Origin: Xanthobacteraceae bacterium
GTDB lineage: Bacteria > Pseudomonadota > Alphaproteobacteria > Rhizobiales > Xanthobacteraceae
Direction of reading: 5' to 3'
Assembly (NCBI GenBank): GCA_024508855.1
Contig: JANINJ010000002.1
Coordinates: 9,187-67,420, forward strand
DNA: 58,234 nucleotides
Position 1 is the stretch's first letter. Each line of letters opens with the position of its first letter. A program made the position numbers and the translations under genes. Below, piece after piece: positions 1,680 to 42,796 of this stretch. The notes beneath the pieces were generated by a model, which did no database searches, was not told the origin of the DNA, and saw nothing but the letters and a program-made list of their open reading frames with translations.

Positions 1680-3014
1680 ATGATTACGTCTTTAGGATCG
1701 TTGTTAGCCGCGCCACTGAGCCGACGTAAGTGGCTTGCAGCGGCGTCAGGTCTTTTTCTCGGTCTTGCCACGCTTGGCCCGGCAAGCGCGGCGGACGACA
1801 CCATCAAGATCGGCATTCTGCATTCGCTCTCGGGCACGATGGCCATCAGCGAGACCACGCTGAAGGATGTCATGCTGATGCTGATCGACGAGCAGAACAA
1901 GAAGGGCGGCGTTCTCGGCAAGAAGCTCGAGGCCGTGGTGGTCGATCCAGCTTCGAACTGGCCGTTGTTCGCTGAAAAGGCGCGCGAGCTGATCACCAAG
2001 GACAAGGTCAGCGTCGTGTTCGGCTGCTGGACATCGGTGTCGCGCAAGTCCGTGCTGCCGGTGTTCAAGGAACTGGATTCGATCCTGTTCTATCCGGTGC
2101 AGTACGAGGGCGAAGAAAGCGAGCGCAACGTATTCTATACCGGTGCTGCGCCGAACCAGCAGGCGATTCCCGCCGTCGACTACCTGATGAAGGAAGAGAA
2201 GGTGAAGCGCTGGGTGCTGGCCGGCACCGACTACGTCTATCCGCGCACCACCAACAAGATCCTGGAAGCCTATTTGAAGTCCAAGGGCGTCTCCCAGGAC
2301 GACATCATGATCAACTATACGCCGTTCGGTCATAGCGATTGGCAGACCATCGTGTCGGACATCAAGAAGTTCGGCTCGGCCGGCAAGAAAACCGCCGTGG
2401 TTTCCACCATCAATGGCGACGCCAACGTGCCGTTCTACAAGGAACTGGGCAACCAGGGCATCAAGGCGACGGATATTCCTGTCGTTGCGTTCTCGGTCGG
2501 TGAAGAAGAACTCGCCGGCATCGACACCAAGCCGCTCGTCGGTCATCTCGCGGCGTGGAACTACTTCGAATCGATCAAGACGCCCGCGAACACCGCCTTT
2601 ATCAAGGAATGGCACGCCTTCACCAAGAACCCGAAGCGCACCACCAACGATCCGATGGAGGCGCACTACATCGGATTCCACATGTGGGTAAAGGCGGTCG
2701 AGAAGGCCAAGTCGTTCGATCCGGACAAGGTGATCGAGGCGCTGCCCGGCATCAAGCAGGCCAACCTGACCGGCGGTATCTCGGAAATGCTGCCGAACCA
2801 CCACATCACAAAGCCGGTATTCATCGGCGAAATCCAGGGCGACGGACAGTTCAACGTCGTCTCTCCGGACGATCCGACGAAAGCCAAGCTGGTGCCCGGC
2901 GACGCATGGTCGGACTACCTCGAAGGCTCCAAGGATCTCGAGGCCGATTGGGTGACCCTGAAGTGCGGCAACTACAACAAGGTCACCAAGAAGTGCGGCG
3001 GTCAGGGCTCGTAG
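1680..3014 (+). CDS. urtA: Urea ABC transporter, substrate-binding protein UrtA
   Basis: Periplasmic urea receptor of 444 residues for the UrtBCDE permease. The N-terminus carries a twin-arginine-like signal (SRRKWLAAASG) followed by a hydrophobic stretch and an Ala-Ser-Ala-Ala cleavage region before the mature start DDTIKIG. The body is a branched-chain amino acid/amide binding protein (Peripla_BP_5-like) with the Urt-typical segments GCWTSVSRKSVLP, LFYPVQYEGEES and GAAPNQQAIPA. A ribosome site AGGGAGA lies 9 bases upstream of the ATG. It is the first gene of urtABCDE and is separated from urtB by a strong hairpin, a common way to make more binding protein than permease. Length and motifs match UrtA well. 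Confidence 0.95.
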   Translation: MITSLGSLLAAPLSRRKWLAAASGLFLGLATLGPASAADDTIKIGILHSLSGTMAISETTLKDVMLMLIDEQNKKGGVLGKKLEAVVVDPASNWPLFAEKARELITKDKVSVVFGCWTSVSRKSVLPVFKELDSILFYPVQYEGEESERNVFYTGAAPNQQAIPAVDYLMKEEKVKRWVLAGTDYVYPRTTNKILEAYLKSKGVSQDDIMINYTPFGHSDWQTIVSDIKKFGSAGKKTAVVSTINGDANVPFYKELGNQGIKATDIPVVAFSVGEEELAGIDTKPLVGHLAAWNYFESIKTPANTAFIKEWHAFTKNPKRTTNDPMEAHYIGFHMWVKAVEKAKSFDPDKVIEALPGIKQANLTGGISEMLPNHHITKPVFIGEIQGDGQFNVVSPDDPTKAKLVPGDAWSDYLEGSKDLEADWVTLKCGNYNKVTKKCGGQGS

Positions 3015-3031
3015 CGATCGCGACCTGATCC

Positions 3032-3058
3032 AGGAAGGCGGCTACGCGCCGCCTTCCT
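3032..3058 (+). terminator. Hairpin between urtA and urtB (attenuator or RNA stabiliser)
   Basis: Perfect 11-base inverted repeat, AGGAAGGCGGC (3032-3042) and GCCGCCTTCCT (3048-3058), with a 5-base loop. Only a weak pyrimidine run (catcttct) follows, so it is better read as a partial terminator or as an element protecting the urtA message than as a full stop. urtB starts only 22 bases later. Confidence 0.65.
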
Positions 3059-3080
3059 CATCTTCTGCCGGGGTATTGCC

Positions 3081-4718
3081 GTGTTTTTCAATTCGGACGT
3101 TTTACGCCACTTGGCTGGCCGCATCAGGCGTGTGGGTGCGATTCTCGCTCTTTCGATCGCGGTATGGTCGAGCGTTCCTGCACATGCAGCATCGTTTGAA
3201 GACGATATCGCCTTGTTCGCCGCACGATCTTTCGCGGATTCCGAAGATGCCGTTGCTCGCCTGCAGGTGAGCGGCAATCCGCTGGCCTATCCCATCATCA
3301 GCGCGCTGAAAGATGGGCGGCTGTATGCGGATGACGACAGCAAAAAAGTTTTTATCAAAGGCACAGACGGCAAGGTCGTCGACGCGTCGAACGGCCAAGC
3401 CGTCGCCACCCTTCCCGATAGCGCCAGCGCCGTTCGCCTCAACAATCGCCTGCGCCGAACCATCGATGCCGCATTGGGCAGTTTGACGCTGCTTTCGCCG
3501 GACGCCTCGGTCCGGATTCAGGCCGCGCAATCCGTCTTCAAAAGCCATGAAGAAAGCTCGCTGGCGCCGCTCGACGCCGCGTTGAAGAACGAGACCAACG
3601 ACACGGCGCGAAAGGCCCTCACCGGGGCCCGCGCGGCCGTGGTCCTGTTCAAAGCCGATGCCAGCGAGGCCGATAAACTCGATGCCATCGCCACGATCAG
3701 GGCACGCGGCGATCAGGAAGCCCTGGCGCTGCTGTCCGGCCTGCCGGGAGACGCACCTCCGGCCGTCGCACGCGCCGCGACCGCCGCGATGGCGTCGATC
3801 AAAGGCAACCTCGCGCTGTGGTCGACCGTGCAGAACGCGTGGTACGGCCTGTCGCTCGGCTCGGTGCTGCTGCTCGCCGCTATCGGCCTCGCCATTACCT
3901 TCGGGGTGATGGGCGTCATCAATATGGCGCATGGCGAGATGGTGATGGTGGGCGCCTATACCACCTTCGTAGTGCAGGAAACGATCCGCACCAGCTATCC
4001 CGCCGCCTTCGATTATTCGCTGCTGATCGCGGTGCCACTCGCCTTCGTCGTCGCTGGTGCAATTGGCGTGCTGATCGAACGAACGATCATCCGCTTCCTT
4101 TACGGGCGTCCGCTGGAGACGTTGCTGGCCACCTGGGGCCTGTCGCTCATTCTTCAGCAGGCCGTCCGAACCATCTTCGGCCCCAACAATCGCGAAGTCG
4201 GCAATCCGTCGTGGATGAGCGGCGCCTTCGACCTCGGGCATATCACCATCACCTATAACCGGCTGTGGATCCTCTGCTTCGCGCTGGCAGTCTTCATCAT
4301 CCTGCTCGCCATGCTCCGCTTCACCCGCCTTGGGCTGGAGATGCGCGCGGTGACGCAGAACCGCAGGATGGCGGCCTCCATGGGCATCGCGACATCGCGG
4401 GTCGATGCGCTCACCTTCGGCCTCGGCTCCGGCATCGCCGGAATCGCCGGCGTGGCGCTGTCGCAGATCGACAACGTCAGCCCCAACCTCGGGCAAAGCT
4501 ACATCATCGACTCCTTCATGGTGGTGGTGTTCGGCGGCGTCGGGAATTTGTGGGGAACGCTGGTCGGCGCCTTCACGCTCGGCATCGCGAACAAGTTCCT
4601 CGAGCCTGCCGCCGGCGCGGTGCTCGGCAAGATCGCGATCCTGGTGTTGATCATCCTGTTCATCCAGAAACGCCCGCGCGGCCTGTTCGCGCTCAAGGGC
4701 CGGGCGGTGGACGCATGA
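3081..4718 (+). CDS. urtB: Urea ABC transporter, permease UrtB
   Basis: Inner-membrane permease of 545 residues starting at GTG. After a signal-like hydrophobic segment (about residues 20-36) comes a soluble region to about residue 245 with helical, HEAT-like character (SVRIQAAQSVFKSHEE), an extension seen in many proteobacterial UrtB proteins. The membrane part follows from about residue 255 and carries the LivH-family signature GVMGVINMAHGEMVMVGAY near residues 275-295. It forms the channel with UrtC and is driven by UrtD and UrtE. Its stop overlaps the urtC start in an ATGA, so the two are translationally coupled. Confidence 0.93.
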   Translation: MFFNSDVLRHLAGRIRRVGAILALSIAVWSSVPAHAASFEDDIALFAARSFADSEDAVARLQVSGNPLAYPIISALKDGRLYADDDSKKVFIKGTDGKVVDASNGQAVATLPDSASAVRLNNRLRRTIDAALGSLTLLSPDASVRIQAAQSVFKSHEESSLAPLDAALKNETNDTARKALTGARAAVVLFKADASEADKLDAIATIRARGDQEALALLSGLPGDAPPAVARAATAAMASIKGNLALWSTVQNAWYGLSLGSVLLLAAIGLAITFGVMGVINMAHGEMVMVGAYTTFVVQETIRTSYPAAFDYSLLIAVPLAFVVAGAIGVLIERTIIRFLYGRPLETLLATWGLSLILQQAVRTIFGPNNREVGNPSWMSGAFDLGHITITYNRLWILCFALAVFIILLAMLRFTRLGLEMRAVTQNRRMAASMGIATSRVDALTFGLGSGIAGIAGVALSQIDNVSPNLGQSYIIDSFMVVVFGGVGNLWGTLVGAFTLGIANKFLEPAAGAVLGKIAILVLIILFIQKRPRGLFALKGRAVDA

Positions 4719-5884
4719 CGTCGCATTTCCTCACTCGCTCGCTTGACCGCAGCGCGACGATCTTTCTCGCGATCGTCGCAGCAGTCGGCGTCCTGTTGCC
4801 GCTGTTCAATCTGCTATTGCCGGACACGTCGATGCTTCACGTGCCGACCTATCTGATGACGCTGTTCGGCAAATATGTCTGTTACGCCGTGCTGGCGCTT
4901 TCGATCGATCTGATCTGGGGCTATTGCGGCATTCTTTCGCTCGGTCATGGCGCGTTCTTTGCGCTGGGCGGCTACGCCATGGGCATGTACCTGATGCGGC
5001 AGATCGGCACCCGCGGCGTCTATGCCGATCCGGTGCTGCCGGATTTCATGGTGTTCCTGAACTGGAAGTCCTTGCCGTGGTACTGGCAGGGCTTCGACAT
5101 GTTCTGGTTCGCGGCGTTGATGGTGGTGCTGGTGCCGGGGTTGCTCGCCTTCTGTTTCGGGTGGCTGGCGTTCCGCTCGCGCGTCACCGGCGTCTATCTC
5201 TCGATCATCACGCAGGCGATGACCTACGCACTGCTGCTGGGCTTCTTCCGCAACGATTTCGGCTTCGGCGGCAACAACGGCCTGACCGATTTCAAGGACA
5301 TCCTGGGCTTCAATGTGCAGGCGGAAGGCACGCGGGCGGCGCTGTTCGCACTCAGCTGCCTTGCACTTGCGATCAGCTTTCTGATCTGCCGCGCCGTGGT
5401 CGGCTCCAAGCTCGGCAAGGTGTTGATCGCCATTCGCGATGCCGAGTCCCGCACCCGTTTCCTGGGCTATCGCGTGGAATCCTACAAGCTGTTCGTATTC
5501 ACGCTGTCGGCCTGCATCGCTGGCGTTGCGGGAGCGCTCTATGTGCCGCAGGTCGGCATCATCAATCCCGGAGAATTTGCGCCGGGCAATTCCATCGAGG
5601 CCGTGATCTGGGTAGCGGTCGGCGGCCGCGGCACCCTGATCGGCGCAGCGCTCGGCGCCATCGTGGTGAACTACGCCAAGACCGTGTTCACATCGGGCGT
5701 GCTGGCGCCGTACTGGCTGTTCATGCTGGGCGCGCTCTTCGTTCTGGTCACCCTGCTGCTGCCGAAGGGCATCATCGGCACATGGAACGCATGGTGGGAA
5801 TCGCGGAAGGCAACCGGCATATCGGAAGATGCCGACAGTGCGGCTTTCGAGGACGGCGCCGTCAAACCTCATATGGCGGAGTGA
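4715..5884 (+). CDS. urtC: Urea ABC transporter, permease UrtC
   Basis: Second inner-membrane permease of the urea transporter, 389 residues, LivM family. It is strongly hydrophobic, with the family segments LIWGYCGILSLGHGAFFALGGYAMGMYLM near residues 67-95, FGFGGNNGLTDF, and RDAESRTRFLGYRVESYKLFVF in the cytoplasmic loop that meets the ATPases. The frame is open further upstream inside urtB, but the start at 4715 is chosen because it overlaps the urtB stop (ATGA) and gives the normal N-terminus. urtD starts 4 bases after its stop. Confidence 0.94.
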   Translation: MTSHFLTRSLDRSATIFLAIVAAVGVLLPLFNLLLPDTSMLHVPTYLMTLFGKYVCYAVLALSIDLIWGYCGILSLGHGAFFALGGYAMGMYLMRQIGTRGVYADPVLPDFMVFLNWKSLPWYWQGFDMFWFAALMVVLVPGLLAFCFGWLAFRSRVTGVYLSIITQAMTYALLLGFFRNDFGFGGNNGLTDFKDILGFNVQAEGTRAALFALSCLALAISFLICRAVVGSKLGKVLIAIRDAESRTRFLGYRVESYKLFVFTLSACIAGVAGALYVPQVGIINPGEFAPGNSIEAVIWVAVGGRGTLIGAALGAIVVNYAKTVFTSGVLAPYWLFMLGALFVLVTLLLPKGIIGTWNAWWESRKATGISEDADSAAFEDGAVKPHMAE

Positions 5885-5888
5885 GCGG

Positions 5889-6650
5889 ATGAACGGACTG
5901 GATACCCGCAAGACCTCGGCGATGCTCTACCTCGACGGTGTGCATGTCTCGTTCGACGGCTTTCATGCCATCAACAATCTGTCGATGACCATCGCGCCCG
6001 GCGAGATGCGCGCGATCATCGGCCCGAACGGCGCCGGCAAGACGACGATGATGGACATCATCACCGGCAAGACCAAGCCGGACAGCGGCGACGTTCTGTT
6101 CGACGGCATCACGGACCTGACTCGGTTGGACGAAACGCAAATTGCCGAACTCGGCATCGGCCGGAAATTCCAGAAGCCGACGGTGTTCGAAAGCCAGACA
6201 GTGGAGGACAACCTGCTGCTGGCGTTGAACGTCGATCATCGCGTGCGCACCACCCTGTTCTGGCAGGACTCCCGGGCGGATGCGGAACGGATCGATCAGG
6301 TCCTCGAAACCATTCGCCTGACCGGCGCGCGCCGCCGGTTGGCGGGAAGCCTGTCGCACGGCCAGAAGCAATGGCTCGAAATCGGAATGCTGCTGGCGCA
6401 GGACCCGAAGCTGTTGCTGGTCGACGAGCCCGTTGCCGGCATGACCGACGTCGAGACCCATCAGACCGCCGAACTGCTGAAAACCATCAACCGCGACAAA
6501 ACCGTGGTGGTGGTCGAACACGACATGACGTTCGTGCGCGAACTCGGCGTCCGGGTCACCTGCCTGCACGAAGGATCGGTGCTTGCGGAAGGGACCATCG
6601 ACCAGGTTTCAGCGAACGAGCGCGTCATCGAAGTCTATTTGGGGCGATAG
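5889..6650 (+). CDS. urtD: Urea ABC transporter, ATP-binding protein UrtD
   Basis: Cytoplasmic ATPase subunit of 253 residues, LivG type. Visible motifs are Walker A GPNGAGKTTMMD, the family-specific signature LSHGQKQWLEIGMLL, Walker B LLLVDEP followed by VAGMTD, and the switch histidine in VVVEHDM. The start at 5889 is 4 bases after the urtC stop, with GGCGGAG just upstream. A palindromic repeat separates it from urtE. The GMTD segment after Walker B is typical of UrtD and separates it from generic branched-chain amino acid transporters. Confidence 0.94.
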   Translation: MNGLDTRKTSAMLYLDGVHVSFDGFHAINNLSMTIAPGEMRAIIGPNGAGKTTMMDIITGKTKPDSGDVLFDGITDLTRLDETQIAELGIGRKFQKPTVFESQTVEDNLLLALNVDHRVRTTLFWQDSRADAERIDQVLETIRLTGARRRLAGSLSHGQKQWLEIGMLLAQDPKLLLVDEPVAGMTDVETHQTAELLKTINRDKTVVVVEHDMTFVRELGVRVTCLHEGSVLAEGTIDQVSANERVIEVYLGR

Positions 6651-6651
6651 T

Positions 6652-6696
6652 GCATGATCCCGAAAAGTGGGCACCGGTTTCCGGACAAGATCATGC
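6652..6696. repeat. 45-base palindromic repeat of the Bradyrhizobium group in the urtD-urtE gap
   Basis: An element bounded by inverted GCATGATC (6652-6659) and GATCATGC (6689-6696), with CGAAAAGTGGGCACCGG inside. I recognise this as a very abundant dispersed intergenic repeat of Bradyrhizobium and Rhodopseudomonas relatives. It starts right after the urtD stop and fills most of the gap to urtE. RNA folding would place a hairpin inside the operon message. Confidence 0.75.
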
Positions 6697-6712
6697 GCAG
6701 AAAGAAACGCTA

Positions 6713-7408
6713 ATGCTCGATATCAAGGACATCGATCTCTTCTACGGCGCAGCGCAGGCCTTGCGTGGCATCTCGCTGACCGCAGAACCCGGCAAGGTGA
6801 CCTGCGTGCTGGGCCGCAACGGCGTCGGCAAGACCAGCCTGTTGCGCGCCCTGGTCGGTCAACAGGCCATCGCGAGCGGCTCGATCAGCCTCGATGGCGC
6901 CAACATCTCATCGCTCAAGCCCTATGAGCGGGCCCGACGCGGAATCTCGCTGGTGCCGCAAGGCCGCGAAATCTTCCCGTTATTGACCGTCGAAGAGAAT
7001 CTCAAGACAGGATACGCTCCGCTGAAGCGGCGCGACCGCAGCATTCCGGATGACGTGTTCGCGCTCTTCCCGGTTCTGCAATCGATGCTGGCGCGGCGCG
7101 GCGGCGACCTGTCGGGGGGACAACAGCAGCAGCTTGCCATCGGACGCGCGCTGGTGATGCGCCCGAAATTGCTGCTGCTCGACGAGCCAACCGAAGGCAT
7201 CCAGCCCTCGATCATCAAGGATATCGGCCGCGCCATTTCCTATCTGCGCAATCTCGGCAACATCGCCATCGTCCTGGTCGAACAATATCTCGATTTCGCC
7301 TGCGAACTGGGTGACGATTTCATCGTCATGGATCGCGGCGCGGTGAAATATCGCTGCGACCGCGTGGCACTCGATCCTACCGAGATCGGCCGGCAGATGG
7401 CGCTGTGA
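6713..7408 (+). CDS. urtE: Urea ABC transporter, ATP-binding protein UrtE
   Basis: Second ATPase subunit, 231 residues, LivF type. Motifs: Walker A LGRNGVGKTSLLRALVG, Q-loop region VPQGREIFPLLTVEENL, ABC signature LSGGQQQQLAIGRALV, Walker B LLLLDEPTEGIQPSII, and the switch region ALVLVEQ-like VLVEQYLDFA. The length and the GIQPSII segment match UrtE. The start at 6713 (MLDIKDIDLFYG) follows AGAAAGAAACGCTA, a weak ribosome site; the longer upstream frame runs through urtD and the repeat and is not used. Confidence 0.94.
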   Translation: MLDIKDIDLFYGAAQALRGISLTAEPGKVTCVLGRNGVGKTSLLRALVGQQAIASGSISLDGANISSLKPYERARRGISLVPQGREIFPLLTVEENLKTGYAPLKRRDRSIPDDVFALFPVLQSMLARRGGDLSGGQQQQLAIGRALVMRPKLLLLDEPTEGIQPSIIKDIGRAISYLRNLGNIAIVLVEQYLDFACELGDDFIVMDRGAVKYRCDRVALDPTEIGRQMAL

Positions 7409-32539: not shown

Positions 32540-33003
32540 GGGCCACAACCAAATAAAACGATTAAACTTGAAACTTCACTTCACTGCGGCACAACAATCG
32601 CGCAACGGATTGCCGGCCTCGTTCCGTCTCAAATCCGTAATGCGGCCAAGCAGCCCAATGCACCCATGCCGGCCGAATTACTTTTACGATGGCATTCGAT
32701 CTGCGCCGATCAGACGAGGCAACACAACGACACCGTCGCAAAACGCACCCTATTCGCGATTGCAGCAACGCGATGTGAAACAGGCCACATCCGGCAATTT
32801 ATTTTTACGGCCATAGGCCGGTACCAGGCTGCCGGCCGCTTCGAAGACAAAACCTTAGATTGCAAGTGTATGACGGCCCGGCGAACGGACCTCCGAACGG
32901 CCGCCGTCAGGGGCGCTGGAGCTATCGACAACCGCCGCGAATACGCCGAAACTGGCGCATCGTCGGGGGACGGTGGGCGCCTTGTCGAATTGCGGAACTG
33001 GAG
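32540..33003. promoter_or_regulatory. Shared upstream region of the LuxR and Crp/Fnr genes
   Basis: About 460 bases between divergent regulator genes, probably holding both promoters. I looked for TTGAT-N4-ATCAA (Fnr/FixK) and TGTGA-N6-TCACA (Crp) boxes and saw none. The open frame that runs from 32860 into the Crp gene has no support as an N-terminal extension. Confidence 0.4.
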
Positions 33004-33753
33004 ATGTTCAAGAAAACCGGGACTCGTCCCGAGGCAAATTCCAAATCGTCGGTGCTGCGAGAGCATCCGTTTTTCAGCGATCTCGAACCCGCAGCCCTCG
33101 ATCAATTGTGCCGCTACGCTACATCCCGGAAATTCCGGCGCGGAGCCACCGTTTTCACCAAGGGCGATCCGGGCGACCGGCTGTTCGCGGTCGCGGCCGG
33201 CTCGGTCAAGATGAGCATCTCGTCGATGGAAGGGCGTAGCGCCATCCTGAACCTGATCGGCAAGGGAGAACTGTTCGGCGAGATCGCCCTGCTCGACGGC
33301 ATGCCGCGCACGACGGACGCGACTGCTCACACCAATTGCGAGCTCGTCGTCATCGACCGGCGCGATTTCCTGCCGTTCCTTCGAAGCCAGCCGCTGCTGG
33401 CCATGAAATTCATCGAACTGCTCTGCACGCGCCTGCGCTGGACCAGCGAGCAGATCGAACACGTCATCCTGCAGGATCTGTCGGGCCGGCTGGCGAGCGT
33501 ATTGCTCGGCCTCGCCGGTCGCCGCCGCCCCGGCCCCGACGGACGCGCTATCGCCATCACCCAGCGCGAGCTCGGCGAGATGGTCGGCATGACCCGGGAA
33601 AGCATCAACAAGCAGTTGCGCGAATGGACGACCCGGCACTGGGTCCGCCTCGAACACGGCGGCATCGTCATCCTGGACCCGAAAGCGCTGGCAGAAGCCG
33701 CGCAGACCGATCCCGCCAGCACCAGTGCCTGGAATGTGCATCCAGGCACTTAG
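33004..33753 (+). CDS. Crp/Fnr-family transcriptional regulator
   Basis: A 249-residue regulator. The N-terminal cyclic-nucleotide-binding domain begins LREHPFFSDLEPAALDQLC, with RGATVFTKGDPGDRLFAVAAGSVKM and the phosphate-binding-cassette-like GELFGEIALLDGMPRTTDA. The C-terminal winged helix has ITQRELGEMVGMTRESINKQLREW. No cysteine cluster for an iron-sulphur sensor is present, so it is not a classical Fnr. The cassette keeps the Gly-Glu and Arg-Thr pattern of cAMP binders, so cAMP binding is plausible. The start at 33004 (MFKKTG) is the Met closest to the domain. Confidence 0.88.
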   Translation: MFKKTGTRPEANSKSSVLREHPFFSDLEPAALDQLCRYATSRKFRRGATVFTKGDPGDRLFAVAAGSVKMSISSMEGRSAILNLIGKGELFGEIALLDGMPRTTDATAHTNCELVVIDRRDFLPFLRSQPLLAMKFIELLCTRLRWTSEQIEHVILQDLSGRLASVLLGLAGRRRPGPDGRAIAITQRELGEMVGMTRESINKQLREWTTRHWVRLEHGGIVILDPKALAEAAQTDPASTSAWNVHPGT

Positions 33754-33814: not shown

Positions 33815-34087
33815 TCACGACCCCGGCGAATGCGAGAAGTGGCTCGGCACGAAATTGACACACCGCACCGGCCGTTTCAGGATGTATTCCGCAGCAACGG
33901 CGAAGTCATCCGAGTGGTCCGCTTCGATTTCCGCGGCGCAGCTTTCCGTGGCAACGAAGACGTAAAGGACGTCCTCGTCCATTTCACTGACGGTCATGCC
34001 GAGGCACAGGCGGTCGTATTTCCACGCGCCGAGAAGGTTGTTGAGGATAGCCTCAATCCCCAGTTGCTGTTCACGTGTTGGTCGCAT
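33815..34087 (-). CDS. Small hypothetical protein (90 aa)
   Basis: A protein of about 90 residues, MRPTREQQLGIEAILNNLLGAWKYDRLCLGM, acidic in the middle (SEMDEDVLYVFVATESCAAEIEADHSDD). The start at 34087 is supported by AAGGAG 7 bases upstream, which makes it a probable real gene although I do not recognise it. No signal or membrane segment. It lies between the Crp/Fnr gene (convergent) and the P450 operon (divergent). Confidence 0.6.
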   Translation of the reverse strand: MRPTREQQLGIEAILNNLLGAWKYDRLCLGMTVSEMDEDVLYVFVATESCAAEIEADHSDDFAVAAEYILKRPVRCVNFVPSHFSHSPGS

Positions 34088-34199
34088 GCGGTGTCTCCTT
34101 GAAAACACCTTAGCGACCGGCGGATGGTTGTCTGTGAACTGCTTCACACCTGGATAAATAGGATGGTGCTAGAGAGGGGGCAGGCCGCAGACGGCCGGC

Positions 34200-34218: not shown

Positions 34219-34340
34219 AACTTTTACCGTCGCACCGACGACTATAGCTGATCAATCATACCCGGCATCCGCGCGTGGCAGTCTGGCGATCCGCGATGCC
34301 GTCCATTCGATTTCGAAAACGGCCAGCGGGGATTCTCCAG

Positions 34341-35873
34341 ATGCTGGATCAACAGAACCACCGGATTGGACTATTGGAACGCGCGCAGCCCGCGAATGCC
34401 GACGCAGGTGAAAACGACATTCGGCGACAGCCGACGCGAACCGATGCGCCGGAATTCCCCGCCGGGGTCGCCGACGCCGCCGCCGGACCGGCTGGCCCGA
34501 CTTTCGATTCCAGGCTAGCTCGCCTGTTCGGATGGCCGCGCCGGCTGATCGAGGCCGGCAAGTATCGTTTCACCTGCTACGTCTTTTGCCATCTGTGGCT
34601 GCTCAAATTCGTCTTCAGCGTGTTGCGCGTCGTACGCCCGATCATGATCTTCGGCAAGGTCGCCGTCGTGACGAAGGCCGAGGACATCCGCGAAGTTCTC
34701 GAACGCTTCGACGATTTCGAACTCGGCGGCGTGATCGAGCCCGGCATGCCGTGGGGACCGTTCCTCATGACGGTGGACTGGCGCGAACAGCACAAGTGCG
34801 AACGGCAGATGCTGGAGAGCGCGGTTTGTCCGGCGACCGACCTCCACACCATTCGCACGATCGCGGCGGAGGTCTGCCGCTCGCGGATCGAAGCGCTGGC
34901 GGATACCGGGCAGCTCGACGTAGTCGCCGATCTGGCCGAGCCGGTCATGGTCCGCATCTTCGCGGATTATATCGGAGTGCCTCCGCTCGACGGCAGCGAG
35001 CAGCGGATGGCCCACGCGATGCGCCATCTCGCCGGCATCATCATGGTCAATCCGCCGATAGACTCGCCGGCCTGGCGCGATTCCCGCGACGACATGGTCG
35101 GCGTGACCCGGCAATTGCTCGATCAACTCGCCACCCAGCATACCGCCGGCGTCACACCGATAACGCCGCGGCAAACCCTGTTCTCCCGGCTGGTCCGGCG
35201 TCACGGCGCCTCCAATCGGCCGGCATGGTTCGATGAGGACTGGATCCGCTGCTATCTGACCGGGCTGGTCGCCACCGGCGGTGCCACCGTGATCCGCGGC
35301 ACCGCGCACACCGTCGATCAATTGCTGGAGCGCGGCAATGCGCTGGAGCGCGCGCAACAGCTCGTTCGCCTGCTCGATCAGGCGGAGCAGCATGCGGCCG
35401 ATACATCGCCGCCGCCCAAGGAAGAAGACGAAGAAGTCACCAAGCTGCGCGACGCGCTGCGGCTGTGCATCTATGAAGCGCTGCGTTTCCGGCCGATGCT
35501 GCCGCTTCTGGTCCGAGACTGCCCGCGCCAGACCGTCATCGCCAAGGGCACGCCACGCGCACGGCTGATGCCGGCAGGCACGCACGTCATCGTGCCTCCA
35601 CTCGCCGCCATGTTCGACGCCGAAGCGTTCCCGAATCCTTCCGCTTTCTCCGAACGGCCGATCGAGAGCTATTTCCACTTCGGGTTCGGCCCTCGCCGCT
35701 GCTTCGGAAAATACATTGCCGACATTGTCCTGCTGGAGGTCGTCCGCGCACTCGCACGGCTGCCGGGTCTCGAACGCGCACGGGGATCGGCCGGTCAGGT
35801 CAGCTATGAAGGTCCGGCGCCCTCCTCGCTCACCGTCATTTTCGATGCCCGCGATTCCGGAGCAAGGCCGTGA
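34341..35873 (+). CDS. Cytochrome P450 with an atypical I-helix
   Basis: About 510 residues, first gene of a three-gene operon. The haem-binding loop FGFGPRRCFG (Cys454) and the K-helix EALR (Glu379) are intact. The I-helix, usually containing a Gly-x-Asp/Glu-Thr pair, instead reads LVATGGATVIRG near residue 311, so the acid-alcohol pair that protonates the bound oxygen is missing. That suggests peroxide use, isomerisation or another non-standard chemistry. A hydrophobic run (FTCYVFCHLWLLKFVFSVLRVV) sits before the first beta-sheet. The start is uncertain: 34275 (GTG), 34296 and 34341 are in frame; 34341 has GGGGA 8 bases upstream. The stop overlaps the next gene in a GTGA. Confidence 0.85.
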   Translation: MLDQQNHRIGLLERAQPANADAGENDIRRQPTRTDAPEFPAGVADAAAGPAGPTFDSRLARLFGWPRRLIEAGKYRFTCYVFCHLWLLKFVFSVLRVVRPIMIFGKVAVVTKAEDIREVLERFDDFELGGVIEPGMPWGPFLMTVDWREQHKCERQMLESAVCPATDLHTIRTIAAEVCRSRIEALADTGQLDVVADLAEPVMVRIFADYIGVPPLDGSEQRMAHAMRHLAGIIMVNPPIDSPAWRDSRDDMVGVTRQLLDQLATQHTAGVTPITPRQTLFSRLVRRHGASNRPAWFDEDWIRCYLTGLVATGGATVIRGTAHTVDQLLERGNALERAQQLVRLLDQAEQHAADTSPPPKEEDEEVTKLRDALRLCIYEALRFRPMLPLLVRDCPRQTVIAKGTPRARLMPAGTHVIVPPLAAMFDAEAFPNPSAFSERPIESYFHFGFGPRRCFGKYIADIVLLEVVRALARLPGLERARGSAGQVSYEGPAPSSLTVIFDARDSGARP

Positions 35874-37918
35874 CCCCAAACTACGTCACCATCGTTACAC
35901 CGCTCAAGCCCGATAGCGTCGAACCGTGCCGGCAATACCTGCGCGACAATGCCGATCCGCAGCTGGGCCAGGTCGACGCATTCCTGGAATGCCGTCCGCT
36001 GTTCCAGTTTGACGAGATTGCGAGCATGCACTTCTGCAGCTTCGTCATTCTCGGCGCCGCCGATGGAATTCCGCCGAGCCTCGTATTCGAGGCGACCTTT
36101 GACGGATCGCGCGACGATTTTCTGAACGACCTGCTGCGGATCGCACCGGAAGGGCTCGACACCATCTATCGCCAGTGTGCCGGCTATCCGGTCTCCGGCA
36201 TCGCAACGCCCGAACTCGTCAAGGAATACTTCGTTCGCCATGACGTCGGCGCGAACACCTTCTTCAGCGGCAGTCCGGGACGAACGGTGTCCCAGATCAG
36301 GGGTGAAGGCCGAATCCGCGATAACCTCGCCGCCTTCCTTTCCGAACGATGCCAGGCCGGTGAAAAGATTCCCGGCCGTGCGGTAGCCATTCTCGACATC
36401 GTACGCGACGTCGTTCGTGGAGCCGGTGCAGCCAACTGGGCCGAGCAGCCGGTGCGGTTGCCGTGGGAAATGACGTTCCGCAACGGAATAGCGCTGGCCG
36501 CCGTCATCGCCGTGGTGGTGCTGGCCAGCCTGCTCGGCGCTCTGGTCTGCTGGGCCGCAGGCCATGGACCGGAATCGCTCCACCGGATCGTCAATGCGTG
36601 GCTGCAAACCGCCGATCAGATCGGTGGCCGCATCGATAACCAGGTGACGACGGTGTTTCCGTGGGTCGGCGAACTGGTGCCGATGATCCAGACATCGACG
36701 CTTCGCCTGCTCAGCGGGCTGACCCTGGCGTGGGTGGTGGTCCGTGTCTGCGAACTGCTGCTCAAGAGCGTGAGCCGGGACGTGCGCGACCAGTTCCTGA
36801 TCTGGCGCTTTCCGCTGCAACTGCTTGTCGTCACGCGATTTGCCCTCGTCGCCTATATCGTCGGCACGGTGCTGCTGGCTGCCGTTTCGGGCGCCGACGC
36901 ATTGGCGCCGGAGGGCACGAACAGCCTCTGGGGCATGTTCAAGGAACTGGCCGCCGTCGGTGTGCAACTCGTCCTCATCGGGTTGCTGCTTCTGATCGGA
37001 TGGCATTTCACGACCTCGCTGAACCTCGCCATCGAGCTTCAGCCGCTCGATGAAACGTGGGAAAACCTGCGACGGATGGCGCTCGATCTCCTCTGGTTTG
37101 CGATGCTGATCCTTGGCGGTATCGGCGTGCTGCTGATCGCTTCCGTCCTGCCGGCAGGCTTCATCGGCAGCATGGCCAGGATCATCGAGCCCATCGTCAA
37201 TTTTCTGTTCCTGTTCGTCTTCTTCGCGGTCGTCGGCATCTTCGCCGCCTACGCGGTCGGCCTGCTGGCGATGCTGACGATCGGCGCGATGGAGCATCAG
37301 GACAAATCGAAGTTCGACAGTGCCGCCGGGTTGCTCAGCCGGGCGCGGGAGAACGCAAAGAAATATGCGCGCGAGGAAGGTGGCATCAACCGATTCCAGA
37401 ATCATCTCGCCAGCGTGACCACGGTGAAGCCCGGCGTGTTGCGGCGGTGGCTGCTGCGGCTGGTTCTGTTCGCGATCAACCTACTGTCGCGCTTCTGGTT
37501 CAACAGGGGCGAACTCGGCGGCATTCCGACCATCCTGTCGGCACGATGGGTATTGATCGACGGCGGCCGGCGATTGCTGTTTCTCGACAACTACGGCGGC
37601 GCCTGGGAAAGCTATCTCAACGAATTCATCGATCTCGCGGCAGTCAAGGGACTCAACGCGATCTGGACGAACACCTTCGTCGGCGCCGCGGGCAAAACCT
37701 ACAGCTTCCCGCCGACGCGTTTCCTGTTCTGGCGCGGCGCGCAGGATGCGCGGCCGTTCAAGGCCTATGTCCGGCAGAGCCAGGTCGAAACCATCGTCTG
37801 GTACGGCGCCTATCCGACGCTGAGCGTCGTCGGCATCAACGCCAATACCGACGTGCGGCAGGCACTCTTCCAGCAACTGCAGCCTGCGGGCGTCGATCGC
37901 CTGCTTCAGGGATTCTAA
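35870..37918 (+). CDS. Membrane protein with two similar soluble domains, between P450 and DyP genes
   Basis: A 682-residue protein I cannot name. It starts at GTG overlapping the P450 stop. Residues 1 to about 130 are an alpha-beta domain (SMHFCSFVILG, then PSLVFEATFDGSRDDFLNDLL). About six or seven hydrophobic segments lie between residues 200 and 530. Residues 540-680 form a second alpha-beta domain (LSARWVLIDGGRRLLFLDNYGGAWESYLNEFIDL). The two ends share the pattern of an aromatic strand, LxFxxxYDG/GG, a (D/E)xxLxxF(I/L) helix and a conserved spacing, so they look like an internal duplication of a ferredoxin-like fold related to that of DyP peroxidases. The coupled context suggests it works with the flanking haem enzymes at the inner membrane. 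Confidence 0.75.
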   Translation: MTPNYVTIVTPLKPDSVEPCRQYLRDNADPQLGQVDAFLECRPLFQFDEIASMHFCSFVILGAADGIPPSLVFEATFDGSRDDFLNDLLRIAPEGLDTIYRQCAGYPVSGIATPELVKEYFVRHDVGANTFFSGSPGRTVSQIRGEGRIRDNLAAFLSERCQAGEKIPGRAVAILDIVRDVVRGAGAANWAEQPVRLPWEMTFRNGIALAAVIAVVVLASLLGALVCWAAGHGPESLHRIVNAWLQTADQIGGRIDNQVTTVFPWVGELVPMIQTSTLRLLSGLTLAWVVVRVCELLLKSVSRDVRDQFLIWRFPLQLLVVTRFALVAYIVGTVLLAAVSGADALAPEGTNSLWGMFKELAAVGVQLVLIGLLLLIGWHFTTSLNLAIELQPLDETWENLRRMALDLLWFAMLILGGIGVLLIASVLPAGFIGSMARIIEPIVNFLFLFVFFAVVGIFAAYAVGLLAMLTIGAMEHQDKSKFDSAAGLLSRARENAKKYAREEGGINRFQNHLASVTTVKPGVLRRWLLRLVLFAINLLSRFWFNRGELGGIPTILSARWVLIDGGRRLLFLDNYGGAWESYLNEFIDLAAVKGLNAIWTNTFVGAAGKTYSFPPTRFLFWRGAQDARPFKAYVRQSQVETIVWYGAYPTLSVVGINANTDVRQALFQQLQPAGVDRLLQGF

Positions 37919-39532
37919 ATGCGGGACACGGCCATGGATTCGATCGAGTGGAATGACGTTCAAGGTCTCCTGTTGAGCGGTTACCCGCGGCTGCCGTATT
38001 CCGCTTACGTGGTCTGGCGTTTCCGGTCCGACTGCGGCGACGCCAGCGGCCGCTGGCTCGGCGGTCTTTCAAAACGCATCATGCGCGCCGCGCCTGCCGA
38101 GGATCACGCCCATTCGGCCGAAGCCGAACCGACCGATATCCGGACGCTCAAGGCCGCCAATGGCGGCCATCACCGCGCAATCAACGTGGCCTTGACCGCC
38201 ACCGGCTTGCGGAAGCTGAACCTCGACGAGCGGCAGATCGCGGAATTCGCGTTCGAATTCCTCGAAGGCATGGCGCCGAGACCGGCCGTAGATGCCGCCG
38301 TATCGCGGCGCTCCAATCTGCTCGGCGACATCGGCGAGTGCGCGCCCGATCGTTGGGACTGGGGCGGCACTTCGGATGTGGATGGCATGCTGCTGCTCTT
38401 CTCGACCGGCGAGGGAGATTTGCAGGTGCTGATCGAGTCGGAAATCACCGCCATGCGCGCCTGTTGCGAGGTAGTCGTGTCCGCGGGTCACGCCAGGGGC
38501 ACGCCGGTCATTCTGCAAAGCCAGCTCTACGACGACCGCAAGGAGCATTTCGGTTTCACCGATGGAATCTCCCAGCCGACGATCGAGGGTTCGCCCAAGG
38601 CCAGGCGGAGCAAGGACCGGCTCAAGAAAAAATCACCGATCGACGATGAAGACGGCGGTACAATGTTGAGCGCGCGCGAGCAGCGCATCTCGCTGGTCAA
38701 GCCGGGCGAATTCGTCCTCGGCTATCCCAACGAGCGCCGCGAGAGCATCACGAGCGCGGTTGCCAACGAAGAGCCCGGCACCTGCGACCTGCTGCGCAAC
38801 GGCACCTATCTGGTGTTCCGGCAGCTCGAACAGGACGTGGAAGCCTTCGATGCCTTTGCCGCGCAACTGGCGAAGCAGATTTACGGCAACACCGATCCAA
38901 GCTCGCAGGAACTGGCGGCCGCGCGGCTGATCGGCCGGCACAAGAACGGCGAGCCTCTGATTTCAGGCGCGGCCGATTCAACGAAGAAGACATCCCGAAA
39001 CGATTTCCTCTATGCGTTCGAGGACGGATCGGGAATGGCCTGCCCGGTCGGCGCCCATATCCGGCGCGCCAATCCGCGCGACATCATCGGCCCCGATCCC
39101 GACACTGCGCTGCGGTTGTCGAAGATGCATCGCATCATCCGGCGCGGCCGGCCCTATGGCCCGCGCCGCGGTGAAGGAAAGCCGGACGCGCGCAGGGGCA
39201 TCGCCTTCATCGCGCTGAATGCCGACATCGCCGGACAGTTCGAGATGATCCAGCATTCGTGGCTTAACAATCCGAACTTCGGCGGACTGTATGCCGGATG
39301 CGATCCGATCGGCCACGTCACCCACGCCGACGACGAGTTCGCCGTGCAGCAACGTCCCGCCAACCTTCATGTCAGGAAGCCCCGCCCGTTCGTCACGGTG
39401 CGCGGCGGCGCCTATTTCTTCCTGCCGGGCATCAAGGCGATCCAGGCCATGGCCGATGCGGCGGAATCTCGCGCAGCCGCGCCGCTTTCGGCCACCGAGG
39501 AATCAAAGCGCAGAAGTGCCGTCTTCGGTTAG
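37919..39532 (+). CDS. DyP-type heme peroxidase
   Basis: A 537-residue peroxidase of the dye-decolorising family. The signature GFTDG is at residues 212-216 with the distal Asp215, CPVGAHIRRANPRD carries the probable proximal haem ligand His380, and RIIRRGRPYG holds the probable distal Arg. There is no signal peptide, so it is likely cytoplasmic or membrane-bound through its partner. At over 500 residues it is longer than the bacterial A/B types and closer to the C/D types. The start codon follows the stop of the membrane protein with no gap; Met at 37934 is also possible. Substrate unknown. Confidence 0.9.
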   Translation: MRDTAMDSIEWNDVQGLLLSGYPRLPYSAYVVWRFRSDCGDASGRWLGGLSKRIMRAAPAEDHAHSAEAEPTDIRTLKAANGGHHRAINVALTATGLRKLNLDERQIAEFAFEFLEGMAPRPAVDAAVSRRSNLLGDIGECAPDRWDWGGTSDVDGMLLLFSTGEGDLQVLIESEITAMRACCEVVVSAGHARGTPVILQSQLYDDRKEHFGFTDGISQPTIEGSPKARRSKDRLKKKSPIDDEDGGTMLSAREQRISLVKPGEFVLGYPNERRESITSAVANEEPGTCDLLRNGTYLVFRQLEQDVEAFDAFAAQLAKQIYGNTDPSSQELAAARLIGRHKNGEPLISGAADSTKKTSRNDFLYAFEDGSGMACPVGAHIRRANPRDIIGPDPDTALRLSKMHRIIRRGRPYGPRRGEGKPDARRGIAFIALNADIAGQFEMIQHSWLNNPNFGGLYAGCDPIGHVTHADDEFAVQQRPANLHVRKPRPFVTVRGGAYFFLPGIKAIQAMADAAESRAAAPLSATEESKRRSAVFG

Positions 39533-39622: not shown

Positions 39623-42600
39623 TCACGCCACCAGATCGGCGAGCGCATCGCGGCACTGACGCGCCAACGGCTTCATCGCGCATTGCTCGGCGAGTTCAAG
39701 CGCACCGCCGTAATACTGCGTCGCCAGCGCCGTATCCGCCGTCCCAGTCGCGCGCGCGATGTCGCCAAGCAGCTTCTGGGCACGCGCCGATTGTGGCGGC
39801 TCGCCGCGCTCCTGTGCCAGTGCCAGCGCGCGTTCCGCGACCGCGCGGGCATCGTCGTGGCGCTTCGCCGCGAGCAGCGCCTGCCCTTGCGCGAGGAAGA
39901 GGTAGCGCCAGCCGAAGGCGTGTTCTGCCAGCGGGATGTCGAGCCGTTCCGGCACCGCGAGAATGTCGAGCGCCGCGCCGATATCCCCGAGCGCGAGATA
40001 CGCCTCGCCCATGCGGGCGGCGAAGATCGGATACATCTGCTTCATTTCGAGATCGAGGCAGGTCTGCCAGCTCTCGCGCATCAGCTGCAGCGCCTCGGCG
40101 GGACGGCCCTGCGCGATCCGCAACCGGCCGAAGACATGATTGATGTTGGCGCGCGAATAAACGTGATTGGCCGCTTCCGCGCGACGACGGGCTTCTTCGG
40201 CCAGCCCTTCGGCGCGGCCAAAGTCGCCGAGGTCGATCAGCGAGTCCGCCATGAAGGTCCGCAACACCACGCTGGGCAGCGCGGCCCATCCCGCCCGCCG
40301 CTGGTCGACTTCCGGCGTTTCCAGCGCGAGGCATTTCTCGTGATAGGCCAGCGCCGCGGTAAAATCGCCGGTCTCGTGATGCACGATGCCGAGTTGGTGA
40401 AACGCCGCGAAGATCAGGATGCGTTCGCCGACCTGCTCCGCGATCGTGCGCGCCAGCCGTGCCGCCGCCAGCGCCTCGCCGTGATAACCCAGCCGCCACA
40501 GCGCCACCGCCAGCTGGCAGTTCACCGCCGCGATGCGCCACGGCTCGTCCGCACTTTCCGCCAGCCGGCCGGCTTGCCGCAGCACTTCGGCAATCCGCCG
40601 ATGCAGGCCGAGCGGCTCGAGCGCCGTGATGACGGTGAGATGCAGATCCATTTCGGCGATGGTCTTCTTGTGCGACTCCGGCCAATGCGTCAGCGACTCC
40701 AGGCCGCGCTCGTAGATCGCGACCGCGTCCTGATTGGCGCCGCGCCGGATCGCGCGCTGGCAGCTCCGCAGCTGATACGGCACCGCCTTCTGCCACAGCT
40801 CCGCCGCGCAGGCGTGATCGGCAAGCCGGTCGATATGCTCGTCGCGACGATCCGCGAACCGCAGTTCGGTGATTTCGATCGCCTTGGCGTGAAGGTAGCG
40901 GCGGATGCTCAGCAGCATCATGCCGTAGGCCACTTCCCGCGTCAGTTCGTGCTTGAACGAATATTCCGAGGTGCCCGAGCCGGAGGTGACGACCTTGCGA
41001 AGGAAGTCCGCGGATTCCAGCGCCTGAAGCCGCGGCGCCACATCGTCGGCCTCCGCGCCCGCCATTCCCGCCAGCAGCGCGACCGGCACATCGCGTCCGA
41101 TCACCGCGGCCATCTGCAGCAGCGACTTCGTGGCGGGGTCGAGCAGATCGATACGCGAGGCCAGCACCGAATGGATCGTTTCGGGAATTTCGATCCGCGA
41201 CGAGTCGGCGCTGACCTTGTAACGGCCGAGATTGTCGACAACGACCTTGGAGTCCTTGAGCGAGCGCGCCAGCTCCTCCACGAACAGCGGGTTTCCCTGC
41301 GCCTGGTCGAGCACCTGTCGTCGAACATGATGCAGGCTGCCGTCGTCACCGAGCAGCGAGACAAACAGCTGGTCGCCATCGCCCTCAGCGAGCGGCGTCA
41401 GATCGAGCCGCCCGGTCTTCACCTGCGTCCACATCCGCTCCGGCCGCTGCGTCGCGACGATCAGGATGCGCGCCCTTCCGATCGCCCCGATCAGGTTGTT
41501 CATCACGAGGCGCGTCTCGGCATCGATCCAGTGAACGTCCTCCATCAGGATGACGAGCGGCGTGAAGCGTTCCTGATAAAGCACCAGGGCCTTGATCGCT
41601 TCGATGATCTTGTGGCGCCGTTCCGGCGGTTCGAGTGCCTTCCAGTCCTTGTCGTCGACGGTGAGATCGAGCAGCGAGAAAATGGCCGGCAGATGCGCCA
41701 TCAATTCGGGATCGAATCGCTCCATCTGCGCGCGCACCCGGCTCGCCGCAACGCCCGGCGTATCCATCAGATCGACGCGGAAGATCGAGCGCATCACGGT
41801 GCTGATGGGGAAATAGCTGGAGTTCATGCGCTGCGCCGCGCAGGCGGCCTCGAACACCAGCCATTCTTCCGAGAGGTTGGTGAGGAATTCGTGGATCAGC
41901 CGCGATTTGCCGATTCCCGCCGCGCCGACGATCGTCGTCGCCTGCCCGTTACCGGCCACCGCACTGTTGAGCAACGATTTCAGGTGAGTCAGTTCGTCTT
42001 GCCGACCGACCAGCGGACTGAGGCCGCCGGAGGACCGCGCCTGCCATCGCGTCTGAAGACGCATCGCAACCAGCTCGAAGGTCTCGACCGGGCTCGACAC
42101 TCCCTTCACGGTCGCCATGCCGAGCGGAAGGGCGCTGATGAATCCGCGCGCCAGCCGGAAGGTGCTGGCCGTCAGCATGATCTTGCCGGGCGCGGCCAGT
42201 TCTTCCATGCGCGCGGCAAGATGGACCGACTTCCCGACCGCGTCGTAATTCATCGACAGGTTGTTGCCGATCGAGTGAATCACCACGTGCCCGGAATTCA
42301 TGCCGATCCGCACTTCGATGTTGCGCTGATTGGCCTGATTGAACTCGCGGATCGTCTCGCGAATGGCAAGCGCAGCCCGGCACGCCTGAACCGCGTGGTC
42401 CTCGCTGGCGATCGGCGCGCCGAACAGCGCCATCACTCCGTCGCCGCGGGTCTGGTTGACCAGCCCGTCATGCTGGTGGACCGCATCCATCAGCCGCTTG
42501 AGGATCGGACCGATGACTTCGAGCGCCTCTTCCGGATCAAGCCCGTCGATCAGTTCGGTCGAGCCCCGGATATCCGCGAACAGAACCGTCACATGCTTGC

Positions 42601-42796
42601 GCTCGCCGAGGCCAGGCGTGCCGGAACGGATACGATCGACGAGGGCAGACGGAACGTTCGATTGCAAAAAGGACAGTGCGTGGGCGCCGACTCCCGTCGA
42701 GGGAGCCCTCGGTCGCCCGCAGCCGCCGCAGAACCGTGCGGCTGCATCCATGACGAAGCCGCAATAGCCGCACTGGCCTGCAACTTTGTCGGTCAT
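39623..42796 (-). CDS. Class III adenylate/guanylate cyclase with AAA-type ATPase and TPR domains
   Basis: A 1,057-residue protein. Order: a zinc ribbon at residues 9-27 (CGYCGFVMDAAARFCGGCG); a class III cyclase domain from about residue 65 (VTVLFADIRGSTELIDGL with metal Asp, QTRGDGVMALFGAP) to about 240; an NTPase domain with Walker A VGAAGIGKSRL; and a long helical TPR-like C-terminal half. This is the multidomain cyclase-ATPase type common in rhizobia, where signal and output are usually unknown. It would make cAMP (or cGMP) in the cytoplasm. It is convergent with the P450-DyP operon. A tandem 14-base repeat lies 155 bases upstream of its start. Confidence 0.88.
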   Translation of the reverse strand: MTDKVAGQCGYCGFVMDAAARFCGGCGRPRAPSTGVGAHALSFLQSNVPSALVDRIRSGTPGLGERKHVTVLFADIRGSTELIDGLDPEEALEVIGPILKRLMDAVHQHDGLVNQTRGDGVMALFGAPIASEDHAVQACRAALAIRETIREFNQANQRNIEVRIGMNSGHVVIHSIGNNLSMNYDAVGKSVHLAARMEELAAPGKIMLTASTFRLARGFISALPLGMATVKGVSSPVETFELVAMRLQTRWQARSSGGLSPLVGRQDELTHLKSLLNSAVAGNGQATTIVGAAGIGKSRLIHEFLTNLSEEWLVFEAACAAQRMNSSYFPISTVMRSIFRVDLMDTPGVAASRVRAQMERFDPELMAHLPAIFSLLDLTVDDKDWKALEPPERRHKIIEAIKALVLYQERFTPLVILMEDVHWIDAETRLVMNNLIGAIGRARILIVATQRPERMWTQVKTGRLDLTPLAEGDGDQLFVSLLGDDGSLHHVRRQVLDQAQGNPLFVEELARSLKDSKVVVDNLGRYKVSADSSRIEIPETIHSVLASRIDLLDPATKSLLQMAAVIGRDVPVALLAGMAGAEADDVAPRLQALESADFLRKVVTSGSGTSEYSFKHELTREVAYGMMLLSIRRYLHAKAIEITELRFADRRDEHIDRLADHACAAELWQKAVPYQLRSCQRAIRRGANQDAVAIYERGLESLTHWPESHKKTIAEMDLHLTVITALEPLGLHRRIAEVLRQAGRLAESADEPWRIAAVNCQLAVALWRLGYHGEALAAARLARTIAEQVGERILIFAAFHQLGIVHHETGDFTAALAYHEKCLALETPEVDQRRAGWAALPSVVLRTFMADSLIDLGDFGRAEGLAEEARRRAEAANHVYSRANINHVFGRLRIAQGRPAEALQLMRESWQTCLDLEMKQMYPIFAARMGEAYLALGDIGAALDILAVPERLDIPLAEHAFGWRYLFLAQGQALLAAKRHDDARAVAERALALAQERGEPPQSARAQKLLGDIARATGTADTALATQYYGGALELAEQCAMKPLARQCRDALADLVA

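Follow-up and report, generated by a model that had tools for sequence, protein, structure and literature searches.

Why would a bacterium encode a cytochrome P450 and a peroxidase, two haem enzymes, on either side of a membrane protein, in genes joined so closely that they share or abut their codons? This question is raised by an operon in a 58,234-nucleotide stretch of DNA from a Xanthobacteraceae bacterium (GenBank assembly GCA_024508855.1, contig JANINJ010000002.1, positions 9,187 to 67,420), referred to below as the window, whose numbering is used throughout. The operon lies on the forward strand and is composed of genes for a 510-residue P450 (34341..35873, ATG start, with an alternative GTG start at 34275), a 682-residue membrane protein named MEM (35870..37918, GTG start) and a 537-residue DyP-type haem peroxidase (37919..39532, ATG start). 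The P450 gene ends in CCGTGA and that of MEM begins with GTGACC, so that the four nucleotides GTGA are shared, while the MEM stop codon TAA directly abuts the DyP ATG with zero bases between them; coordinates and junction letters both agree with the four-base overlap and zero-base junction reported in a preliminary description of the locus. Its naming of the products is likewise borne out for the two enzymes: the P450 matches PF00067 (E 1.2e-14), and the DyP matches PF20628 above the cut-off (E 3.6e-7, 30.5 versus 20 bits) and TIGR01413 slightly under it (E 2.4e-27, 96.1 versus 100.5 bits). MEM belongs to no known family and has no significant match in Pfam, NCBIfam or PDB. The GC content of the operon region is similar to that of its surroundings.

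When MEM was used as a query, matches were found in 60 of 391 same-family genomes, representing 11 of 47 genera, and near-full-length MEM in 17 of these genomes, its own included. The P450, MEM and DyP genes are adjacent in all 17 (MEM lies in two frames in G187, and the P450 of G129 is truncated at a contig end), as the preliminary description had asked of other genomes that carry the 682-residue protein. The Afipia birgiae MEM (L006:8001-10059) is broken over two frames and was kept as two pieces. The four-nucleotide overlap between P450 and MEM recurs in four of five named loci (L002, L004, L005 and L006), and a gap of about 20 bases takes its place in L003; these five loci belong to the 17 genomes and hence bring no additional evidence. 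Within the genus, two of the eight genomes searched carry the triplet, which makes it accessory. The regions fetched for further comparison left out four genomes with MEM matches (G347, G203, G323 and G390) and a second place in G358.

The wider set consists of 69 loci from 67 genomes, picked by MEM or by its soluble domain, sol, not by DyP, whose open reading frames (ORFs) were searched with P450, sol and DyP profiles. In 17 of the 69 loci the P450, sol, transmembrane region, sol and DyP follow one another within a single open frame of 1,408-1,692 residues, each with two sol copies (one was found in L122). The fusions occur in three families (f1, f3 and f13) and include plasmid-encoded proteins of Pararhizobium qamdonense, Novosphingobium aromaticivorans DSM 12444 (plasmid pNL2) and Sulfitobacter. 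Other arrangements are also met: MEM-DyP-P450 in L039, sol fused to DyP in L055, L129 and L047 (the last with a frame break in DyP), DyP fused to P450 in L066 and, elsewhere, DyP with one, two or three separate sol genes next to it. On one side of the sol-DyP gene of L055 lie two opposite-strand ORFs (2826-4217 and 5695-7086) sharing their first 50 residues, and those on its other side resemble transposase genes, judged by eye only. Retention of the triplet, and further the single-polypeptide fusions in three families, support the earlier proposal that the proteins are made and work together; on this comparative evidence, P450, sol-TM-sol (TM, transmembrane region) and DyP almost certainly form a conserved, often fused unit.

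Homologues align through the same stretches with MEM residues 1-165 and with residues 500-680, which are therefore two copies of one domain, named sol here. The first, sol1 (approximately residues 1-165, 35870..36364), has a profile E of 1.8e-40 and the second, better conserved copy, sol2 (approximately residues 500-680, 37367..37909), one of 7.6e-52. The region between them (residues 209-460, 36494..37249) contains about six hydrophobic segments according to a crude Kyte-Doolittle hydropathy scan, seen as helices in a low-confidence model, and fused relatives have about two. The even segment numbers of this crude scan would put the two enzymes and the two sol copies together on one side of the membrane.

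All 69 loci have sol and DyP close together on one strand; the two overlap or are at most 190 bases apart in 67 loci, and in two (L123 and L128) the distance is about 1 kb. In a held-out test of 385 genomes of the class, sol was detected in 12, eight of them new, at nine places, and DyP is adjacent to or fused with it in all eight testable loci, L154, whose contig ends after sol, being set aside. A phylum-wide sample yielded sol in 27 of 398 genomes, and sol-sol-DyP also lies on a plasmid from Granulicella tundricola, an acidobacterium, which extends the set beyond Pseudomonadota. As far as gene neighbourhood can tell, sol is the constant companion of DyP.

It had been suggested at the outset that the soluble ends of MEM are DyP-like in fold, a claim that we could not uphold. 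Comparison of the sol and DyP profiles showed no similarity, in a first run and again with trimmed rows. A 95% match between the two profiles proved to be an artefact: the DyP rows held 60 upstream residues, which are the sol tail of fused proteins, and the match was gone after trimming. The AlphaFold models of MEM (5 rows) and sol2 (12 rows) are of low confidence, with pLDDT values of 50.6 and 42.9, and Foldseek returned no significant match with them; the best plausible ones, at non-significant E values of 0.1-0.4, were an antibiotic biosynthesis monooxygenase, ActVA-Orf6 and a NIPSNAP protein. Oligogalacturonate lyase was also considered for sol and rejected, the Pfam match being at chance level in three of 26 sol rows (best E 0.018); it was the sole PDB profile match (E 0.022 and 0.042). 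The NCBIfam search covered MEM and the fused proteins, not isolated sol rows.

Judged by alignment, the haem ligands are intact in both enzymes. In DyP, Asp215 of the GxxDG motif, the proximal His380 and the distal Arg408 (window numbering) are conserved in all 70 rows that have a residue at the position, each count omitting one fragment of L047, where DyP is split over two frames; we take the roles of these residues to be those usually ascribed to them. Together with the DyP C-terminal domain they identify the gene product as a DyP-type peroxidase. Its best PDB sequence matches are headed by 8re3/8re2 ('Peroxidase, putative') and include, after these, an ancestral D-type enzyme, DyP2 and Alr1585. 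These C/D-type DyPs, to use class letters that are in part our assumption, have the same catalytic residues as the window enzyme, which differs from them in its constant linkage to sol and in having an additional partner enzyme. In the P450s, the haem Cys is present in 52 of 52 rows and the Glu and Arg of ExxR in 51, both being absent from the P450 domain of L051. The window P450 has the family fold match, ExxR at residue 379 and the haem ligand Cys454 (codon at 35700) within FxxGxxxCxG.

The second haem enzyme of the unit is exchangeable. Among the 69 loci it is a P450 in 43, a catalase-like protein in 10 (nine by profile, and L065 by Pfam) and a RoxA-like di-haem protein in five; it was not found in 11, and at the thresholds used none of the 69 has more than one. 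Likewise, a P450 and a catalase-like partner do not occur in the same locus at these thresholds among the eight held-out loci, which comprise five with P450 (on the opposite strand in L150), one with a catalase-like protein and two with neither. Strict exclusivity of the two is nevertheless ruled out by Methylorubrum (L136), which has both: on the Methylorubrum populi plasmid pMPPM03 (L136:3197-9170), genes for a ferredoxin, a reductase, a canonical P450, a catalase-like protein, sol and DyP are followed by a transposase gene. On a quick DyP tree with SH-aLRT support only and some long branches, in which L136 was labelled catalase-like and both L047 pieces were omitted, the partner types need at least four label changes.

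Seven of the catalase-like partners were scanned with Pfam. PF00199 is matched above the cut-off in three of them (L065, L070 and L108), below it in L069 (22.5 versus 25 bits), and not in L115, L117 or the C terminus of L121, and NCBIfam gave a match in none of seven; the rows lacking a Pfam match are grouped with the rest through a single home-made profile. In 12 domains from 11 loci, L070 being left out, the proximal Tyr is invariant (12/12) and the distal His is present in eight, with Asn or Gln instead in four. In L121 (9688-12390) the catalase-like domain forms the C terminus of DyP itself (E 6e-105), and a second catalase-like ORF is located nearby on the other strand (4179-5420). This arrangement is reminiscent of the coral and cyanobacterial catalase-related AOS/HPL proteins, where a catalase-fold domain is likewise fused to an oxidative enzyme, with the differences that the latter is a DyP here, not a lipoxygenase, and that no Thr precedes the distal His (0/12).

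The RoxA-like protein is found no more than 45 bases from sol-DyP in five same-family genomes (L057-L061), with two CxxCH motifs in L058; in L062 such a gene was looked for and none was found. The RoxA-like family includes a fatty-acid dioxygenase and diol synthase, PA2077/PA2078 (PMC4496055). The partner in our five loci is comparable to these oxygenases as a RoxA-like di-haem protein with two CxxCH; it differs in its linkage to sol-DyP, and the similarity is weak (E 5.7e-9 over 60 residues). Four further loci (L063, L064, L067 and L068) have sol-DyP without a second haem enzyme and a DUF4331-like protein nearby. That of L064 also carries a Polyketide_cyc2 domain (Pfam was run on L064 only), and the cluster of L063 also includes a molybdopterin-type oxidoreductase.

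What could the P450 do beside a peroxidase? A first indication comes from its I-helix (GLVATGGATV, residues 308-317, 35262..35291), in which the acid-alcohol pair of classical O2-activating monooxygenases is represented by Ala315 and Thr316, the acid being replaced and the Thr kept. The register was anchored on the rows that possess the motif (L149, L148, L066 and the Methylorubrum P450), all falling in one alignment column. The acid is lost in 48 of 51 partner P450s, replaced by Pro in 41, Ala in six, the window included, and Gly in one; the count excludes the Methylorubrum control and L072, whose P450 is cut by a contig end. The Methylorubrum P450, with ferredoxin and reductase genes of its own, serves as an internal control and keeps a canonical AGHETT. 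Universal loss of the acid among the partners is ruled out by L066, L148 and L149. Loss of the whole pair as in CYP152, with Pro at the alcohol position, is also excluded, the rows with Asp/Glu-Thr placing Pro or Ala at the acid position. No ferredoxin gene was seen near the window P450 in one homology search and with crude motifs. Because the acid of the pair is missing and no such gene was seen, we infer peroxide chemistry; that peroxide indeed drives the P450 is, in our estimate, evenly balanced between true and false.

Such an enzyme would not be without parallel. According to PMC13049297, P450s that isomerise hydroperoxides or endoperoxides are self-sufficient, and so are the P450 partners of the fungal fusions, TXS and PGIS. 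The fungal DOX-CYP fusions (8R-LDS/PpoA type, 10R-EAS and AOS), as presented there, unite in one chain a P450 that needs no redox partner with a haem peroxidase-like domain, as the fused proteins of our set unite P450 and DyP. The peroxidase here is a DyP, not cyclooxygenase-like, sol-TM-sol is inserted between the two enzymes, and the P450 is N-terminal in the fused proteins; the domain searches gave DyP domains and no animal-type peroxidase domain. The CYP152 peroxygenases (OleT type), in which Arg-Pro replaces the acid-alcohol pair (PMC5377825), have in common with most partner P450s the loss of the acid. They differ in the residues that take its place: Pro-Thr is the commonest pair here, with Ala-Thr in the window, and no Arg precedes the commonest Pro. 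The sole NCBIfam CYP152 match is L066, which keeps the acid, with an E value of 0.0012, far below the cut-off. No description of a P450-DyP gene set or fusion was found in the open-access literature, among the matches listed, in accordance with the initial remark that no described pathway of this composition was known.

Taken together, the three genes may encode a membrane-anchored two-haem oxidative complex with a peroxide-run P450, an unsaturated lipid as the likeliest class of substrate and control by a cyclase and a Crp-type regulator, a reading that we put forward tentatively. MEM would act as a scaffold: DyP and the partner enzyme would dock onto its two sol domains, all on the cytoplasmic side of the membrane, and its hydrophobic segments could give the enzymes access to lipids. 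The P450 would run without NAD(P)H redox partners, on H2O2 or an organic hydroperoxide, and DyP would make or consume an oxidised intermediate beside it, such that reactive species would be channelled, not released. The pair would then behave like a bacterial counterpart of the fungal dioxygenase-P450 fusions, acting on an unsaturated lipid, with the operon under the putative control of the neighbouring cyclase/AAA/TPR protein and Crp-type regulator. The idea of an oxidative complex was already in the preliminary description: the joint unit stands on the 17 of 17 adjacent triplets and the fusions, and the peroxide chemistry and the lipid-like substrate are argued from indirect signs. It did not mention that the soluble ends of MEM are repeats of one domain, that this domain goes with DyP, or that other haem proteins can replace the P450. 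A lipid-like substrate is suggested by lipases found at a few related loci, and lipids are perhaps the substrates. The substrate and the first-acting enzyme are guesses, and our confidence in the order of steps is low. A broader generalisation, rather unlikely as it stands, would be a class of bacterial two-haem lipid oxidases in which a sol scaffold recruits DyP and a swappable haem enzyme (peroxide-type P450, catalase-like or RoxA-like) to the membrane, DyP initiating the reaction and the partner rearranging a lipid hydroperoxide; under the control of cyclic nucleotides, this would be a DyP-based equivalent of the synthesis of oxylipins or prostanoids.

The surroundings of the operon bear on the regulatory part of this proposal. 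Downstream and convergent with it, a gene on the reverse strand (39623..42796) encodes a 1057-residue protein with class III cyclase, AAA_16 and TPR parts. Such a cyclase-AAA-TPR protein adjoins the set in all 11 wide close-relative loci (L002-L006 and L071-L076) and is present at 27-31% identity beside P450-type relatives, for example L047, L052-L054 and L056. The fused clade carries a conserved TPR protein (553-697 residues) in its stead, at all 17 fused loci; there is a cyclase domain with it in L113, and Novosphingobium has a SARP-annotated gene at the corresponding place. Upstream of the operon, a Crp-family regulator with cNMP_binding and HTH_Crp_2 domains is encoded on the forward strand (32860..33753), and a Crp-family relative lies near the set in eight of the 11 wide close-relative loci.

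A perfect Crp-type box, TGTGAACTGCTTCACA (34133..34148), is located 5' of the operon. It was the Crp gene that prompted the search for such boxes, for which four related patterns were used; one perfect site in the window compares with 0.03 expected, and three of 100 shuffles reach one. The perfect pattern is present 5' of the P450 in four of 10 regions examined, the window included. The box overlaps the possible GTG start codon of a reverse-strand ORF, and its conservation may therefore be partly coding; a 110-residue ORF of unassigned function on that strand (33815..34147) is conserved in L004 and L071. Genome-wide there are four perfect sites. Two of the three others (G000:C25:18570 and C26:57001) have the core TGTGAACYGCTTCACA in common with that of the window, and the three, for which all flanks and the ORFs of two were read, have no evident relation to the operon.

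Lipid enzymes are found in or beside a few loci: a patatin in L119 and L120, an LCAT-type enzyme in L149, a Tle1-like phospholipase on the other strand in L126 and a GDSL lipase domain in L129. In L129 (392-5155) a single 1587-residue protein consists of sol, DyP and this weak terminal domain (27.0 bits, cut-off 32.9). In L119 (5341-10393) the genes for DyP, a patatin-like phospholipase, a P450 and a FadL/TodX porin form one run.

A simple oxylipin reading meets with several objections. Lipid enzymes accompany just five of 77 loci, of which L119 and L120 are near-identical, in a count based on selected neighbours without a background rate, and the window's own neighbours give no hint at the substrate. 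No lipoxygenase or animal-type haem peroxidase was seen in the recurrent neighbour clusters and Pfam scans, which covered part of the neighbours. A second haem enzyme is missing from view in the 11 loci mentioned above. The Thr before the distal His, reportedly a hallmark of catalase-related allene oxide synthases, is present in none of the 12 catalase-like domains, which by this mark do not resemble allene oxide synthases. As to the P450s, three of 51 keep the acid, two of them among the five held-out, and the alcohol-position Thr is kept in 33 of the 48 acid-less ones, the window included, a pattern that differs from the Arg-Pro of CYP152; acid loss by itself is no proof of peroxide use. Finally, an adrenodoxin-type ferredoxin ORF, recognised by motif only, lies about 5 kb from the sol/DyP/P450 cluster of L109 (17743-18105); other ferredoxins were sought by one homology search and crude motifs, so that an unlinked one could serve the P450.

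A rival reading is peroxide defence, in which the complex would destroy H2O2 or lipid hydroperoxides at the membrane and the partner would be a second scavenger beside a peroxide-reducing DyP. Catalase-like and RoxA/Ccp-like partners come from peroxide-reacting haem families, the absence of Thr-His from the former is in keeping with scavenging, and katG and Fur-family genes lie a few kb from the Granulicella sol-sol-DyP. A P450, however, is generally known as a poor scavenger, and its fusion to DyP would be needless; the recurrent regulators identified, moreover, are cyclase, Crp, SARP or TPR proteins, even if the Fur-family protein of Granulicella may be a peroxide sensor. We regard defence as an unlikely main function, if one to be reckoned with.

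The P450 could instead be an NAD(P)H-fed monooxygenase served by an unlinked ferredoxin, perhaps in the making of a specialised metabolite, with DyP responsible for radical coupling or tailoring. The loss of the acid in 48 of 51 partners is difficult to reconcile with this view, which draws on the acids of L066, L148 and L149, the Thr of the 33 others and the L109 ferredoxin. Weak NCBIfam matches of the P450s do include natural-product P450s, but the recurrent neighbour clusters examined showed no nonribosomal peptide synthetase, polyketide synthase or terpene enzyme, and catalase-like or di-haem proteins take the place of the P450 elsewhere. This role, too, seems improbable to us.

Oxylipin signalling, in which P450 and DyP would make a diffusible lipid-derived signal read by the cyclase/AAA/TPR protein, is suggested by the presence of that neighbour at every one of the 11 wide close-relative loci, by its diverged copies at other clusters and by the perfect Crp box; the type of regulator differs between clades, however, which may mean mere regulated expression, and no conserved receptor or exporter was noticed, which leaves it very unlikely. 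Chance adjacency of three unrelated genes, for which nothing speaks beyond its prior possibility and the accessory distribution (two of eight same-genus genomes), is refuted by the natural fusions, next to the 17 of 17 conservation, and is hardly conceivable.

DyP peroxidases have been intensively studied for their action on lignin and dyes, and their natural role is largely open. The newness of the tentative membrane-anchored two-haem complex lies in its assembly, judged against the open-access literature, the enzyme superfamilies being already known: it would bring a scaffold domain lacking a significant Pfam or PDB match, and a P450-peroxidase fusion whose peroxidase is a DyP. Some bacteria with the single-chain version, Novosphingobium aromaticivorans DSM 12444 for one, can be cultured, which makes the question accessible to direct bench work. 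A sol family constantly tied to DyP, usually together with one second haem enzyme, would provide these peroxidases with a concrete, testable partner and a location at the membrane.

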